Source: Candidatus Gastranaerophilales bacterium (GTDB taxonomy: Bacteria > Cyanobacteriota > Vampirovibrionia > Gastranaerophilales > Gastranaerophilaceae). From it: 64,000 bases of DNA. Positions 364 to 61,819 of the stretch are shown piece after piece. The DNA is taken from assembly GCA_947594025.1 (NCBI GenBank), contig CANQDZ010000002.1, positions 1 to 64,000 of the forward strand, written 5' to 3'. Made by a program: the position numbers and the translations under genes. Every line of letters begins with the position of its first letter. Position 1 is the stretch's first letter. The notes below the pieces were generated by a model. It saw only the letters and a list, made by a program, of their open reading frames with translations. It had not been told where the DNA came from and ran no database searches.

Positions 364-392
364 TTGAATTAAACATTTTTTTTCTTTATAAT
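364..392 (+). promoter_or_regulatory. coaD promoter, predicted leaderless
   Basis: A -35 box TTGAAT (364-369) and a consensus -10 TATAAT (387-392) are separated by exactly 17 bases. The ATG of coaD starts at 399, six bases after the -10 box, so the expected transcription start falls at or next to the A of ATG. No Shine-Dalgarno sequence is present. Confidence 0.7.
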
Positions 393-398
393 TTAGCC

Positions 399-896
399 AT
401 GGGGCATAAACAGAGAATTGCAATATATCCGGGGAGCTTTGATCCGATTACAAAAGGACATTTAGATGTTCTTGATAAAGCTTCAAACATGTTTGATAAG
501 GTAATTGTTGCCGTTTTAAAAAATAGTGCAAAAAAATCTTTTTTGCCTTTCAACGATAGGGTTTATCTTATTAAAGAGAGCACAAAAGAATACGAAAATG
601 TTGAAGTTATAAGCTTTGACGGGCTTACTGTTGATTGTGCGGAACAATACGGCGCAAAATTTATAATAAGAGGTTTGCGTGCAGTTTCAGATTTTGAATA
701 TGAAATGCAGTTATCTCAAACCAATTCTGCCTTAAAGCCTGATATATGTACTGTTTTCCTAACAACAAGGGCAAAATATAACTTTATTTCATCAAGTATT
801 GTTAAGGAAATTTCACAATTTAATGGGGATGTTTCTAAATTTGTTCCCGATGTTGTGGTAAAATATTTACAAGAGAATAAAAATAAGGAAGGATAA
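399..896 (+). CDS. coaD: Phosphopantetheine adenylyltransferase (CoaD)
   Basis: Cytoplasmic enzyme of coenzyme A synthesis that adenylylates 4'-phosphopantetheine to dephospho-CoA. The 165-residue length is normal for the family. The N-terminal IAIYPGSFDPITKGH carries the nucleotidyltransferase (T/H)xGH motif (TKGH). IIRGLRAVSDFEYE and the C-terminal ISSSIVKE signature are also intact. The start at 399 is fixed by family length, since the catalytic motif begins about ten residues in, and it sits six bases after a -10 box with no ribosome site. The gene for a coiled-coil protein follows 4 bases after the stop, so the two are probably co-transcribed. Identification is secure. Confidence 0.96.
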   Translation: MGHKQRIAIYPGSFDPITKGHLDVLDKASNMFDKVIVAVLKNSAKKSFLPFNDRVYLIKESTKEYENVEVISFDGLTVDCAEQYGAKFIIRGLRAVSDFEYEMQLSQTNSALKPDICTVFLTTRAKYNFISSSIVKEISQFNGDVSKFVPDVVVKYLQENKNKEG

Positions 897-6794: not shown

Positions 6795-6824
6795 TTGCCC
6801 TAACTCCTTAACATGTAATATAAT
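6795..6824 (+). promoter_or_regulatory. Promoter of first LuxR-type regulator, predicted leaderless
   Basis: TTGCCC (6795-6800) and a consensus TATAAT (6819-6824) are separated by 18 bases. The ATG follows six bases after the -10 box at 6831, and no ribosome-binding sequence is present. Confidence 0.65.
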
Positions 6825-8655: not shown

Positions 8656-8663
8656 GCTATAAC
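8656..8663 (+). promoter_or_regulatory. Extended -10 box, predicted leaderless start
   Basis: TGCTATAAC (8655-8663) is a TGn-extended -10 element. The ATG of the next gene begins six bases later at 8670, with no ribosome site. The box lies within the 23-base gap after the pentapeptide gene. Confidence 0.55.
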
Positions 8664-10458: not shown

Positions 10459-11379
10459 TTATTCTTTATAAAATGCCTCAATGAATCCGCCTAAAATTTT
10501 ACCCGCTAAAAGACCAAAGGAACAAACAGGACAAGATGTAAGCACCTTTTTTGCGCCTGTCTTTTTAATTTGTTTTCTTTTTTTCATCATAAGTTTTAAG
10601 GTAATAATCGGATGAGATAAGAAAAAATCTCCTCCAAATCCGCAGCATTCTTGTGCGGGCAGCGGTATATAATTTTCGCTCCGTTTTAGGGTTTCATTTA
10701 TCTTTGAATATGTCTCATCTGACATATGGCATGGTTTATGATAAGTAAAAGGTTTATTTGGTATTTTAAGTTCAGGCTCAAAGTATAACTTTTCTTCTAT
10801 TGTACGAGGAAGCGGATACTTTTTAAATGTGTCATAACATGTTGCACAGCTAAAAATTATTTTTTTAATTTTTGGGTCTGACGCCATTTTTATATTGTGA
10901 GTCATTAATTTTTCATATACATCAAGTCTGCCTTTTGACAGATATGGCATGGCACAACACTTAAAATCATTTTTATATGATGAAATACAGCCAAAAAAGT
11001 GTATTTCGCCCTCTTTTTCTTTGTATTTTCTTTTAAATACGTTAAACGGAAGCATTTTCAACTTAAAAATAAACTCACTTGATAAAAATCTTTCTAATTT
11101 TGATAAGTTTTTATATTTGAAGTTTGCAAAAATTTTAACAGCATCAATGTTTGAGGGGCAAAAAGATTGGCATTTTCCGCAATTTAAGCACAGGTTCAAA
11201 TTCTTTTTAATTTTTTTGGAAAATTTTAAATCACCGTTTAAAACACCTAAAAGCTGGGTAAATTTACCTCTTGTTAAACTTACTTCGTTTTTTTTAATAT
11301 GAAAAATCGGGCAAACCTCAGCACATATTGCACATCTTGAACATTTTCTTAAATTTTCTTTTAAGTGATTTGCTTCCAT
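10459..11379 (-). CDS. GlcF/HdrD-like Fe-S protein with CCG domains
   Basis: A 306-residue soluble electron-transfer protein. Two N-terminal 4Fe-4S motifs are present, CSRCAICAEVC near residue 13 and CLNCGKCQSFC near 65. Two CCG-like cysteine clusters follow (FSCATCYDT, then QECCGFGGDFF and SCPVCSFGL). This layout matches the Fe-S subunit of glycolate/lactate oxidases or heterodisulfide reductase subunits, which pass electrons between a flavoprotein and a quinone or thiol. No flavoprotein gene lies beside it. The ATG at 11379 is chosen over a frame opening at 11421 because it sits seven bases after a TATACT box and the extra residues overlap the divergent gene. Substrate unknown. Confidence 0.8.
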   Translation of the reverse strand: MEANHLKENLRKCSRCAICAEVCPIFHIKKNEVSLTRGKFTQLLGVLNGDLKFSKKIKKNLNLCLNCGKCQSFCPSNIDAVKIFANFKYKNLSKLERFLSSEFIFKLKMLPFNVFKRKYKEKEGEIHFFGCISSYKNDFKCCAMPYLSKGRLDVYEKLMTHNIKMASDPKIKKIIFSCATCYDTFKKYPLPRTIEEKLYFEPELKIPNKPFTYHKPCHMSDETYSKINETLKRSENYIPLPAQECCGFGGDFFLSHPIITLKLMMKKRKQIKKTGAKKVLTSCPVCSFGLLAGKILGGFIEAFYKE

Positions 11380-11386
11380 ACTTTGT

Positions 11387-11394
11387 AGTATAAT
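11387..11394. promoter_or_regulatory. Overlapping divergent -10 boxes of Fe-S protein and dehydrogenase genes
   Basis: TATAAT on the plus strand (11389-11394) lies six bases before the dehydrogenase ATG at 11401. TATACT on the minus strand (11392-11387) lies seven bases before the Fe-S protein ATG at 11379. The two start codons are only about 21 bases apart, and neither has a ribosome site. The same four central bases serve both promoters. Confidence 0.65.
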
Positions 11395-11400
11395 CCAAAT

Positions 11401-12342
11401 ATGAAAAGAGCTGTATACCAAAATGAAGAAATAAAAATCATTGAATGTAATGTTCCAAAACTAAAAGGACTTGGTGCCGTTATTAAAGTATATGGCTGCG
11501 GATTGTGCGGTTCTGATATTGTAAAAATCAGGGAAAAAAAAGATAATCCGATTTTAGGACACGAAGTTGTCGGCGAAATAATTGAAATAAATTCAAAAAC
11601 AAAATTTAAAGTCGGGGATAAAGTGGCACTCGGTCACCATTTCCCTTGTTTTAAGTGTGAATACTGCAAAAACGGAAGCTATTCAATGTGCGAAGGTTTT
11701 AAATCTACAAACATTGAGCCCTGCGGATTTTCGGAATATATTTATGTGACTGAAGGTCATCTTAAAAATACCGTTTTTAGTGTGCCAAAGAATTTAACGT
11801 ACGAAGAAATATCATTTCTGGAACCGTTATCTTGCGTTGTAAGAGCGGTTGAAAGAGCAGAAATAAAGAAAGGACAAAAGGTTCTTGTATTGGGGCTCGG
11901 TTCAATCGGCAATTTAATGGCGCAAACAACACGCGTTTATGGCGGAAAAGTTTACGGATATGACATAAATGAAGAAAGACAAAAATATTCTAAACTAAAG
12001 TTTGACCCAAATATAAGATATAATGTTATATTTATGACGTCAGGGGCCTCAGCTTCCATTGAAACTGCCCTAAAGTACGTACTTTCAGGCGGTAAAATTG
12101 TTGTATTTGCCTCAGTTAAAGATGAAACAGGTTACATAAATAACGATATTTACTACAGAGAACTAACCGTTCTCGGAAGTTATTCGCCGGCACCTTATGA
12201 TTATAAAATTTCTTATAACCTGTTAAAATCGGGAAAAGTAAAAGTTAAGGGAATGTCGATGAATTATAAGCTTGATGAATTATCTAAAGCTATTCAAGAT
12301 ACAATATCAAATAAAATTATGAAAGCATACATAGAATTATGA
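11401..12342 (+). CDS. Zinc-dependent medium-chain dehydrogenase, first of pair
   Basis: A 313-residue NAD(P)-dependent alcohol/polyol dehydrogenase of the MDR family. The catalytic zinc region is GCGLCGSDIVK with GHEVVGE. Four cysteines in CFKCEYCKNGSYSMC (about residues 81-95) form the structural zinc site. The Rossmann motif is VLGLGSIGN. It is somewhat shorter than the usual 340-350 residues, with a trimmed nucleotide-binding half. The start is leaderless, six bases after TATAAT. The stop overlaps the next dehydrogenase by ATGA. Threonine- or sorbitol-dehydrogenase-like activity is plausible; the actual substrate cannot be read from sequence. Confidence 0.86.
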   Translation: MKRAVYQNEEIKIIECNVPKLKGLGAVIKVYGCGLCGSDIVKIREKKDNPILGHEVVGEIIEINSKTKFKVGDKVALGHHFPCFKCEYCKNGSYSMCEGFKSTNIEPCGFSEYIYVTEGHLKNTVFSVPKNLTYEEISFLEPLSCVVRAVERAEIKKGQKVLVLGLGSIGNLMAQTTRVYGGKVYGYDINEERQKYSKLKFDPNIRYNVIFMTSGASASIETALKYVLSGGKIVVFASVKDETGYINNDIYYRELTVLGSYSPAPYDYKISYNLLKSGKVKVKGMSMNYKLDELSKAIQDTISNKIMKAYIEL

Positions 12343-15656: not shown

Positions 15657-15666
15657 ATTATATAAT
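15657..15666. promoter_or_regulatory. Palindromic bidirectional -10 (ATTATATAAT) for mutS and divergent gene
   Basis: The 10-base palindrome ATTATATAAT contains TATAAT on the plus strand (15661-15666), seven bases before the mutS ATG. It also contains TATAAT on the minus strand (15662-15657), 16 bases before the divergent ATG at 15640. The identical palindrome recurs at 53134-53143 between dnaX and its divergent neighbour. Confidence 0.65.
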
Positions 15667-15673
15667 ATAACAA

Positions 15674-18034
15674 ATGATATCAATTTATCAAAATATTTTT
15701 GAATTAAAAAATATCAAATTGCCTGAAACTTTGGCAGATTATGTAAAAATTAAATTAGAAAATAAAGACTGCGTTGTTTTGTTTCAAATAGGCGAATTTT
15801 ATGAGGCATACTTGGAAGATGCAAAAATTTTATCCGAGGCATGCTCTATTTATCTGACGACAAAAAAGATAAAATCGGGCTCTTTAATTATGGCCGGTAT
15901 TCCTTCCAAAAGCTTGGAAGAATACGTGGTAAAACTTGTTGATTTTGATTATAAAGTTCTTGTTTGCAATCAAAAAGAAGAAAATAACAAAATAAAAAGA
16001 GAGATAAAAAGAATTTATTCAAAAGGAATGATTTTTGAAGATAACCTTTTAAATTCTTCGAAAAATAATTATATTGTTTCAATTTTTAAAGATAAAAACC
16101 TTGTGGGTCTTGCAAAAGCAGATATTTCGACGGGAGAATTCAGCACATGTGAAGGAAGTTTAAACGAAATTTTAAACGAACTCAAAATAATTGAGCCTTC
16201 CGAATTGCTTATCCCCGTTAAAACAAGGGAGACAAAGGCTTTTCAGGTTATAGATGAACCCAAGCCCGATATTGATGCCGATTTTTCAAATTTTAATGTC
16301 ACTCTGGTTAAAAAATCTTCCTTCAGCAGCTCTTTAATTAAGAGTGAAAATCTTGGATATAAATGCGTAAACGCGATATTAGAGTATTCAAAACTTACAA
16401 ATAAAGAATTTGCCCCAAAAATCGGAAAAATCAAAAGATATAACTTAAATGATTATTTAACAATTGATGAAACGGCTTCCTTAAATCTTGAACTTTTCAA
16501 AACGACGGATAATAAATACAAGGGCTCTTTTCTTTGGGCGATTGATAATACATTGACACCAATGGGAAAAAGACTTTTAATTAATTGGATAAAAAAACCT
16601 TTAAGGAATATTAAGAGGATAGAAACAAGGCAAAACGCGCTTGAAGAATATAAAAATTCAAACAATATTTCAAATATTCAAAATGCGCTTAAAAACTGTT
16701 ATGACATCAAACGACTGTGGGGTAAATTAACCGGCAAAACACTTTCAATAAAGGATTTTATATCTTTAAAAAATACAATTAAGCAATGTTTTATTCTTGG
16801 CGAATACACAAAAAACTTTAATAACGGCTTGATAAAATTTGATTTAGAGGTTTTGCAGAATTTAAAATCTCTCCTTGAAATTTTAGATAACAGTTTGCAG
16901 GATGAAGAAGACGGCGAAATATTTAAAGAGGGTGCAAACACTCATCTTGATTTGATAAAAAAAGATATCGAAAAATATTATTTGGAAATCAAAAAATATG
17001 AAGAAAAAGAAAAAGAAAAAACGGGAATTAAATCTCTAAAAATTATTGAAAATAAGATTTTAGGTTATTTTATTGAAGTGGGCAGCAAAAATATCTTAAA
17101 TGTTCCCGATTATTTTAAGATAAGACAAAATATGCTTAATTCTTCAAGATACACAACGGATGAACTTGTTATATTGAATGAAAAAATTAACTCTTTAATG
17201 TATCGAAAAATGAACGCCGAGAAAGAAATCTTAAACGGGCTAAAAGAATTTATACTCGGTTTTGCGGATGATATTTATGAACTCGGTAACAAGCTTGCTT
17301 CTCTTGATGTCATAAATTCATTTTACATAACTTCTGAGGGAAAAGATTTTGTAAAACCTGAATTTAATGACTTAAAAACCTTAAAATTTACAGCCTTAAA
17401 ACATCCTCTGTCCCCTATGATATTTGAAAATTATATTCCTAATGATTTTAAAGTTGAAGATCTAAGACGATTTAAGCTCTTAACGGGACCTAACATGGCA
17501 GGTAAGTCAACATATATGAAATCTATTGCACTAAATATTATATTGGCGCAAATGGGTTCTTATACTTGCGCTTCAAAGTTTGAGAGCATTTTATTTGACA
17601 GGATTTTCGTACATTCAAAATCGGAAGACTATATAAACAAAGGTAAGTCAACTTTTATGTCTGAAATGTGCGACGTCAAAGAAATTGTTGAAAATGCAAC
17701 CGACGAGAGCTTTATTATTTTTGACGAGCTTGCAAAGGGGACATCCACATCCGATGGTCTTAAACTTGCGTTTGGAATATCAAAATATGTTATTGACAAC
17801 ATAAATGCGATAACGATTTTTGCAACACATTTTCATAAATTAAAAGCCTTAAAGGAAAGGTATCCTGATAAAGTTCAAAATTTAATGATTGGTGAAAATT
17901 TCAATCTTGAAGAAAAAATATTTGACAGACATGTTAAAGAGGGCTTTTTAAACGAAAGTTACGGAATAAATGTCGCACGTGCGGTTAATCTGCCTTATGA
18001 AATAATTAAGCAGGCTTGCGATTTTGAGGTATAA
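15674..18034 (+). CDS. mutS: DNA mismatch repair protein MutS
   Basis: A 786-residue mismatch-recognition ATPase. The N-terminal clamp has LFQIGEFYEAY, carrying the Phe-x-Glu mismatch-reading motif of MutS1. The core and lever domains (about 250-550) lead into the ATPase: Walker A TGPNMAGKSTYMKS near 605, Walker B FIIFDELAKGTSTSDG near 685, then FATHFHKL. It ends soon after GINVARAVNLP and lacks the C-terminal tetramerisation extension of the 850-residue enzymes. The gene is predicted leaderless. Its stop codon lies inside the -10 box of queD. mutL is not in the window. Confidence 0.93.
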   Translation: MISIYQNIFELKNIKLPETLADYVKIKLENKDCVVLFQIGEFYEAYLEDAKILSEACSIYLTTKKIKSGSLIMAGIPSKSLEEYVVKLVDFDYKVLVCNQKEENNKIKREIKRIYSKGMIFEDNLLNSSKNNYIVSIFKDKNLVGLAKADISTGEFSTCEGSLNEILNELKIIEPSELLIPVKTRETKAFQVIDEPKPDIDADFSNFNVTLVKKSSFSSSLIKSENLGYKCVNAILEYSKLTNKEFAPKIGKIKRYNLNDYLTIDETASLNLELFKTTDNKYKGSFLWAIDNTLTPMGKRLLINWIKKPLRNIKRIETRQNALEEYKNSNNISNIQNALKNCYDIKRLWGKLTGKTLSIKDFISLKNTIKQCFILGEYTKNFNNGLIKFDLEVLQNLKSLLEILDNSLQDEEDGEIFKEGANTHLDLIKKDIEKYYLEIKKYEEKEKEKTGIKSLKIIENKILGYFIEVGSKNILNVPDYFKIRQNMLNSSRYTTDELVILNEKINSLMYRKMNAEKEILNGLKEFILGFADDIYELGNKLASLDVINSFYITSEGKDFVKPEFNDLKTLKFTALKHPLSPMIFENYIPNDFKVEDLRRFKLLTGPNMAGKSTYMKSIALNIILAQMGSYTCASKFESILFDRIFVHSKSEDYINKGKSTFMSEMCDVKEIVENATDESFIIFDELAKGTSTSDGLKLAFGISKYVIDNINAITIFATHFHKLKALKERYPDKVQNLMIGENFNLEEKIFDRHVKEGFLNESYGINVARAVNLPYEIIKQACDFEV

Positions 18035-18035
18035 T
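18030..18035 (+). promoter_or_regulatory. queD -10 box containing the mutS stop codon
   Basis: TATAAT at 18030-18035 includes the TAA stop of mutS (18032-18034). It lies six bases before the queD ATG at 18042, with no ribosome site. The -35 region is not clear. Confidence 0.55.
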
Positions 18036-25807: not shown

Positions 25808-26421
25808 TAACCGCCTTCTTCCCACTTTCTTACCCTGAATTTTGCCCCTATATTTTCCGTAATTTTTTCACATTCATCAGTATTTATCTTAAAATTTTTA
25901 TACCCGACAACAACACTCATGGTTGTCTTTATGCCATTTTTAACACATTCTTTTGCAAAATCAAGCATATGTTCGTAAGCATTTTCTATTTGAGGTTTGG
26001 AGATTTCGTTGTATAAATTTTCATTTTCTCCGTTTAAGCTTATGGATATTTCATCAATTAAGCCCGCCATTTCCGGCACAATATTTTTTTTATTTGCGAA
26101 TGAGCCATGCCCGTTTGTGTTCAGTCTGACTTTTGAGCCTTTAAAATTTTCTTTGATATATTTTGCGGTTTTAATCAAAACATCAAAACGCAAAGTGGGC
26201 TCTCCGTATCCGCAAAAAGTTATTTCTCCTTGTATTTTATCTCTGTTTTCTTCAAGCTGTTTTTTAACATCTTCAAAAGTAATATTATCAGAGTCGAGCC
26301 AAAGGTCTTTACCTTTAACATCCTTTTTAATATCTCTTACACAAAACAAACACCTGTTTGTGCAGGCGTTTGTTAAGTTAATATACGTTTTGCCTTCTAA
26401 AAAATATACAATGTTGTTCAT
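25804..26421 (-). CDS. Small radical SAM protein (TatD-associated type)
   Basis: A 205-residue radical SAM enzyme with the 4Fe-4S motif CTNRCLFC at about residues 20-27, ITFCGYGEPTLR (the GGE-like SAM-binding motif) and IDEISISLNGEN. The C-terminal FRVRKWEEGGY is very short. The size and C-terminus resemble the TatD-associated radical SAM family of unknown function; NrdG-type activases are an alternative. Its stop overlaps the lplA start, so it may act in the same lipoylation-related step. The start is predicted leaderless: a TGTTAAAAT extended -10 lies six bases upstream. Confidence 0.82.
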   Translation of the reverse strand: MNNIVYFLEGKTYINLTNACTNRCLFCVRDIKKDVKGKDLWLDSDNITFEDVKKQLEENRDKIQGEITFCGYGEPTLRFDVLIKTAKYIKENFKGSKVRLNTNGHGSFANKKNIVPEMAGLIDEISISLNGENENLYNEISKPQIENAYEHMLDFAKECVKNGIKTTMSVVVGYKNFKINTDECEKITENIGAKFRVRKWEEGGY

Positions 26422-26427
26422 ATCTAA

Positions 26428-26436
26428 ATTTTAACA
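26428..26436 (-). promoter_or_regulatory. Extended -10 of radical SAM gene, predicted leaderless
   Basis: On the minus strand TGTTAAAAT (26436-26428) ends six bases before the ATG at 26421. No ribosome site is present. Confidence 0.5.
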
Positions 26437-33745: not shown

Positions 33746-33838
33746 ATACTTTTCCTCTTAAAAGGATTATACAACAAATCCCGTTAAAATCATAAACATA
33801 TCTTTTGCTAAAACATTTTTTGCGATATACTTAATGGT

Positions 33839-37316: not shown

Positions 37317-37322
37317 TATAAT
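37317..37322 (+). promoter_or_regulatory. obgE extended -10 box, predicted leaderless
   Basis: TGATATAAT (37314-37322) is a TGn-extended consensus -10. The obgE ATG begins six bases later at 37329, and there is no ribosome site. Confidence 0.65.
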
Positions 37323-60447: not shown

Positions 60448-61818
60448 ATGGCAAAGCTTGAAAGAACTTTAAATTTAACTGATGCAATATCAATCGTTGC
60501 AGGCTCTATGATAGGAAGCGGTATTTTCATAGTTTCTGCGGATATATCACGTCAGGTAAATAATTCCCTGCTTCTTTTAATTGTTTGGATTATTGCAGGT
60601 GTAATAACGTTCACCGGTGCTTTGTGCTACGGCGAGTTATCATCTTCTATCCCAAGTGAAGGGGGACAATACATTTATCTTAAAAATATATTTTCACAAC
60701 GCCTCGCCTTTGTTTACGGCTGGACACTTTTTCTTGTAATTCAAACGGGAACGCTTGCTGCGGTAAATATTGCGTTTGCTAAGTTTTTAGGTATTATTTT
60801 TCCGTATTTAAGTTCAACAAACTATGTTTTTTATACAATTTCAACTCAGAAATTATTTGCGGTCTTGGTTGTAATTATGCTTACATACATAAACTCAAGA
60901 GGAGTAAAGGAAGGCATTCTTGTTCAGAATATATTTACCGCAACAAAAATACTGTCAATTGTTGCAATAATTTTATGCGGATTATTTTTTGGAGTTAATT
61001 TAAACGCAATTACAAGCAATTTTTCACTTCAAAGTGCAGATATTACCTTTGATTTTAATCTTATAAAAACTATTTTGGTTGCGGTTGTGGGTGCATTGTT
61101 TGCATCCATTACATGGAACAACGTTACATTTATCACATCCGAAATAAAAAAACCGAAAAGGAACATACCAAAAGCTTTAATTATAGGAACGCTGTGCACC
61201 ATAAGCCTTTATTTTTTAATAAATCTTATTTATTTGGGAACAATGCCTCTGGATTTAATCAAAAATGCAAACGAAGACATTGTGGCGGTTGCCCTTATTA
61301 ATCAAATACTCGGCGAAAAAGGGGTGGTGATAATTGCGATAATTATTGCAATATCCGCATTTGGATGTTCAAACGGCATGATTTTAACAGGCTCAAGAGT
61401 ATATTACAAAATGGCAAAAGACAGAATATTTTTTAGAAAACTTGCCTATATAAACAGAAGAACCAAGGTTCCGGAAAATTCTCTCTGGCTTCAATGTTTT
61501 TGGATATGCGTTTTAATATTGTGGGGAAGTTACAGCCAGCTTTTAGATTATGTTTTATACTCATCTCTTATTTTCTATATAATTACAATTTTTGGGATTT
61601 TTAAATTAAGAAAACAAAGAGAAAATTCAAAAAGAGTTTTTAAGGTGCCGACGTTTGTTCCCGTTTTATTTTTAGCAGTCAGTATTCCTGTTATTATAGC
61701 ACTTACTTTTTATAAACCTATGTATACGGTGCCGGGTCTTTTTGTATCGGCTCTGGGTTTTCCCGTTTATAATATGTGGAAAAATCACAAAAACAAAAAT
61801 AATAAATTTTTTGTATAA
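60448..61818 (+). CDS. APC-family amino-acid permease
   Basis: A 456-residue inner-membrane transporter with twelve predicted helices. The N-terminal signature TDAISIVAGSMIGSGIFIVS is typical of the amino-acid/polyamine/organocation family, with GALCYGELSSSIPSEGGQYIYLK next. Substrates may be amino acids or polyamines; the sequence does not decide. A TGATAAAAT extended -10 lies nine bases before the ATG. The last codon and stop (GTA TAA) overlap the folP -10 box. Confidence 0.88.
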   Translation: MAKLERTLNLTDAISIVAGSMIGSGIFIVSADISRQVNNSLLLLIVWIIAGVITFTGALCYGELSSSIPSEGGQYIYLKNIFSQRLAFVYGWTLFLVIQTGTLAAVNIAFAKFLGIIFPYLSSTNYVFYTISTQKLFAVLVVIMLTYINSRGVKEGILVQNIFTATKILSIVAIILCGLFFGVNLNAITSNFSLQSADITFDFNLIKTILVAVVGALFASITWNNVTFITSEIKKPKRNIPKALIIGTLCTISLYFLINLIYLGTMPLDLIKNANEDIVAVALINQILGEKGVVIIAIIIAISAFGCSNGMILTGSRVYYKMAKDRIFFRKLAYINRRTKVPENSLWLQCFWICVLILWGSYSQLLDYVLYSSLIFYIITIFGIFKLRKQRENSKRVFKVPTFVPVLFLAVSIPVIIALTFYKPMYTVPGLFVSALGFPVYNMWKNHKNKNNKFFV

Positions 61819-61819
61819 T
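61814..61819 (+). promoter_or_regulatory. folP -10 box containing the permease stop codon
   Basis: TATAAT (61814-61819) includes the TAA stop of the permease (61816-61818). The start codon ATG at 61827 follows seven bases later, and no ribosome site is present. This is the same arrangement as at queD. Confidence 0.55.

Follow-up and report, generated by a model that had tools for sequence, protein, structure and literature searches.

A class of genes in this Gastranaerophilales genome is very probably transcribed from sigma-70-type promoters whose start point lies on the A of the start codon, an arrangement read from box positions that would produce leaderless mRNAs and leaderless translation restricted to AUG. 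The source genome (G000; 1.51 Mb in 52 contigs, 34% GC) belongs to the Melainabacteria, non-photosynthetic Cyanobacteriota; the nearest matches of its DnaK are Candidatus Gastranaerophilales MAGs (86-87% identity). The window is the whole stretch of 64,000 nucleotides analysed, positions 1 to 64,000 of contig CANQDZ010000002.1. Box distances were determined in 442 kb sampled from the genome, in which our own ORF scorer called 396 ORFs, 394 of them usable, and 208 unit-first genes were scored. Because the scorer takes the first ATG as start, some of the called starts are wrong. A box was defined as TAnnnT with at most one mismatch and distance as the number of bases between the end of the box and the first ATG; the chance level was derived from 100 runs of dinucleotide shuffling. 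For wider comparison seven close-family genomes were pooled, and family f6 was added in some tests.

In this sample a box was found at distance 6 in 26 of the 208 unit-first genes and at distance 7 in 12, whereas the shuffled upstream regions gave 2.6 and 3.0, respectively, and the largest bin in any of the 100 shuffles held 10. Chance alone would account for about 3 of the 26 genes and for 3 of the 12, and any single gene is to that extent uncertain. When exact spacings were counted in the whole genome, TATAATN6ATG occurred 76 times, compared with 45, 35 and 30 for N4, N8 and N12. In the seven pooled genomes, first genes lacking an SD site had 82 boxes at distance 6 and 24 at distance 7; other distances mostly had about 4-11, except for 24 at 9, 18 at 11 and counts of 13-15 in a few bins. 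In a genome of 34% GC, TATAAT-like strings could stand before many ATGs by chance, and the shuffles do yield about 3 matches at each distance for the 208 genes. This explanation does not account for the 26 and 12 genes at distances 6 and 7 or for the much lower numbers at other distances; moreover, the rate of boxes at distance 6 was 9.3% at gene starts but 0.6% at internal in-frame ATGs (family pool plus f6), and the photosynthetic genome G126, which is similarly AT-rich, had no peak. Taken together, these controls refute chance for the class and leave it a negligible probability, and they bear out the preliminary description, which had called the arrangement far more regular than chance.

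The same description had listed genes of the window with a -10 box 6-7 bases before the start codon, and in every one of them such a box precedes a plausible ATG. The clearest case is coaD (TIGR01510, E=4e-60), where TATAAT at 387..392 on the plus strand ends 6 bases before the ATG at 399..401, where a leaderless mRNA is predicted to begin; the box and its spacing recur in the same-genus genome G001. Farther upstream, near the contig end, positions 33-289 hold a tandem array of 2.1 copies of a 121 bp unit (97%). Plus-strand boxes ending 6 bases before the ATG were also found at the response regulator (TATAAT 6819..6824, ATG 6831), the dehydrogenase (TATAAT 11389..11394, ATG 11401) and obgE (TATAAT 37317..37322 with extended TG, ATG 37329); obgE orthologues in G001, G016 and G008 likewise have the box at 6. 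On the minus strand, the radical SAM gene with ATG at 26421 has TAAAAT with extended TG at 26428..26433, 6 bases away and conserved in G001. A distance of 7 was found for mutS (TATAAT 15661..15666, plus strand, ATG 15674; same box and spacing in G001), the TPR gene (TATACT 33826..33831, plus strand, ATG 33839) and the Fe-S protein (TATACT 11387..11392, minus strand, ATG 11379), whose box interlocks with the plus-strand box of the gene at 11401. Two plus-strand cases are weak. The exported protein has a weaker -10-like box, tentatively assigned (TATAAC 8658..8663, 6 bases before ATG 8670), and a gene on the same strand ends 23 nt before it. The box of queD (TIGR03367; TATAAT 18030..18035, 6 bases before ATG 18042) overlaps the end of mutS; since the start lies 7 nt past the mutS stop and an SD-like GAGGT stands upstream, this tentative match may be due to chance or the gene may be SD-led. 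The listing of folP (DHPS, TIGR01496) is conditional on its start: TATAAT at 61814..61819 (plus strand) covers the first bases of the upstream ATG 61818, and the gene fits the pattern, at distance 7, only if translation starts at ATG 61827. The G001 orthologue, whose Met1 aligns to codon 61827 and is preceded by a box at 6 bases, supports the latter start. Over all 65 genes of the window a box was at distance 6 in 6 and at distance 7 in 4, and most other distances had 0-3.

The genes with a box at 6 or 7 lack SD sites: in G000 one of 39 had an SD, compared with 96/185 (Fisher p about 6e-10), and the corresponding numbers in relatives were 0/22 (G010, same family), 0/12 (G002), 1/25 (G001) and 0/12 (G022 of family f6). 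As the 16S gene was not found in the source MAG, the anti-SD was read in relatives; it is intact in six of them, including G010. SD-positive first genes of the seven-genome pool had hardly any boxes between distances 4 and 11, their boxes forming a broad hump at 14-40, the median leader of SD-led genes being about 26 nt. As predictions from sequence, both the class without a ribosome site and the second, SD-led class that had been proposed for this genome were recovered. About 310 SD-negative first genes of the family sample have neither signal. Mycobacteria use GTG, too, as a leaderless start. Here, GTG and TTG starts of the pooled close-family genomes had no box peak, the peak being confined to ATG, and in this respect we see no sign of leaderless GTG starts.

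Genes with a box at 6 have a common motif, TTG-17-TGnTATAAT, the TTG standing about 17 bp before the box, and the same -35 and -10 motif precedes SD-led genes. In 73 of 90 box-6 genes (81%) the base at -1 is T, against a background of 0.49-0.55. With a box 6-7 bases before the ATG, the mRNA should begin at the ATG: the extended -10 and the weak -35 17 bp upstream would set +1 seven bases past the box, and the T at -1 may help to focus initiation on the A of the ATG. The ribosome would then begin at the AUG at the very 5' end without pairing to an SD, presumably taking the known 70S leaderless route. Units without the box-at-ATG arrangement mostly have an SD and a short leader of about 26 nt. 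Alternatively, the boxes may be active and the transcription starts spread over several bases, so that the mRNAs carry very short leaders (1-5 nt) and are not truly leaderless. The 12 boxes at distance 7 in G000, whose genes might carry leaders 1-2 nt long, are in line with such spreading. So is a lesser excess at distance 9: of the 26 SD-negative genes with a box there, 22 have none at 6 or 7 (family pool plus f6). These boxes would correspond to leaders about 3 nt long or to start calls in error by 3 bases. This alternative, which we consider unlikely, is opposed by the sharp maximum at 6, which places the A of the ATG on the expected +1, and by the enrichment of T at -1.

A further possibility is that transcription begins near these ATGs but the called starts are wrong, the ribosomes beginning at a downstream, SD-preceded codon. 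First-ATG calls are indeed incorrect for some genes, as folP (61818 versus 61827) illustrates. However, an SD-preceded start within the next 40 codons was found in just 7 of 116 leaderless candidates, compared with 32 of 323 SD-led genes; the in-frame coding signal of the candidates sets in at the ATG, being seen in codons 2-6; and most orthologues, including SD-led ones, keep the same start position. In coaD, obgE and others a conserved motif is reached within a few residues of the ATG. On these grounds wrong starts were rejected for the class and appear very unlikely. At class level the start codon thus behaves as the true translation start, which for individual genes is a prediction.

Spacing 6 was the commonest of the four spacings in all seven close-family genomes (whole-genome counts). 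Histograms made directly from gene samples had a peak in G000, G001, G009, G010, G002 and G022, weakest in G002, and none in G028 or the photosynthetic G126; in G006, G017, G018 and G020 gene numbers were too small to tell. For all other genomes the signal consists of whole-genome pattern counts. The ratio of TATAATN6ATG to the in-phase N12 control was 1.4-3.9 in family f1, whose weakest member was G001 (76 at N6, 71 at N4), 1.6 in f6, 1.4 and 2.0 in f7, 1.1-2.8 in f8, 1.8-3.9 in f11 and 8 in f15, the last from small numbers (24 versus 3). No excess was seen in other families of the order (f2-f4, 0.9-1.3) or in most photosynthetic genomes (mostly 0.8-1.6). Since both ratios and histograms differ among families, the signal is patchy.

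Genes also differ in mode between close relatives. Of the orthologue pairs that include a leaderless gene, 9 were leaderless in both members, 25 combined leaderless with SD-led and 33 combined leaderless with neither signal. In coaD the leaderless arrangement was found only in the source genus, and most other family members checked have an SD; compared with most SD-led orthologues, coaD here starts 4 codons farther upstream. Such capture of a leader was rejected as a general route, because offsets between leaderless and SD-led starts are mostly 0-2 and do not reveal a trend. It seems to us about an even call that the non-photosynthetic Cyanobacteriota possess a patchy, fast-evolving, AUG-restricted leaderless system, marked by T at -1, in which genes switch between leaderless and SD-led modes over short evolutionary distances and sometimes convert the former leader into an N-terminal extension. 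Orthologues that switched mode recently offer a set for studying gain and loss of initiation signals.

The arrangement resembles the TA-led genes of Zheng et al. 2011 (PMC3160421), in which TAnnnT/TATAAT lies about 12 bp before the start codon and which coexist with SD-led genes: here, too, the box stands at about that position, significantly above dinucleotide shuffles, an SD is missing upstream, and SD-led genes occur alongside. That study found leaderless genes abundant in Actinobacteria and Deinococcus-Thermus, and many Cyanobacteria using neither signal, unlike the non-photosynthetic cyanobacterial lineage described here, which uses both. Predicted leaderless genes make up about 17% of the unit-first genes of G000 and 5-13% in those other sampled genomes whose signal is clear, and a smaller share when all genes are counted. 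This is below the more than 20% taken to mark leaderless-rich phyla (Actinobacteria, Deinococcus-Thermus). The suggestion that leaderless initiation is a routine mode is fair for this share of first genes, as a minority mode. In Deinococcus-Thermus (PMC12340547) a -10 motif adjoining the ORF likewise drives transcription of leaderless mRNA and depends on its spacing; the present genes differ in their full extended TGnTATAAT, weak -35, 34% GC and lower fraction. Start codons at many mRNA 5' ends, beside SD-led genes, are also known from the leaderless transcriptome of M. tuberculosis (PMC3898074); here they are predicted. No report of leaderless genes in Melainabacteria was found in the literature searched, which included few subscription papers. 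The mechanism is known from other bacteria and, provisionally, seems unreported for this lineage. An uncultured gut lineage would thereby be added to those bacteria in which leaderless and SD-led initiation occur side by side, and this in a phylum many of whose members are said to use neither; annotators should allow leaderless starts in Gastranaerophilales.

The genes at 11379 and 11401 form a divergent, predicted leaderless pair. Their start codons are separated by 22 bp, their -10 boxes interlock (AGTATAAT), and each -35 would fall inside the coding sequence of the opposite gene. Overlapping -10 elements on opposite strands recall the bidirectional promoters treated in the passages of PMC10268837 that cite Warman et al. 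2021, where -10 symmetry, a typical separation of 18 bp and an often non-coding product are described; here the distance between the predicted starts is 22 bp, and each of them opens a protein gene. Among 200 divergent pairs there was no peak at 18 bp. Pairs in G002 and G009 were considered as evidence for a conserved 22 bp spacing and rejected, because the minus-strand gene probably starts at a later Met in both. A separate observation concerns mutS (15674-18034), which is unusually divergent, with 55% identity to the congener and 35-39% to other relatives; the corresponding values for coaD are 81% and 53-70%.
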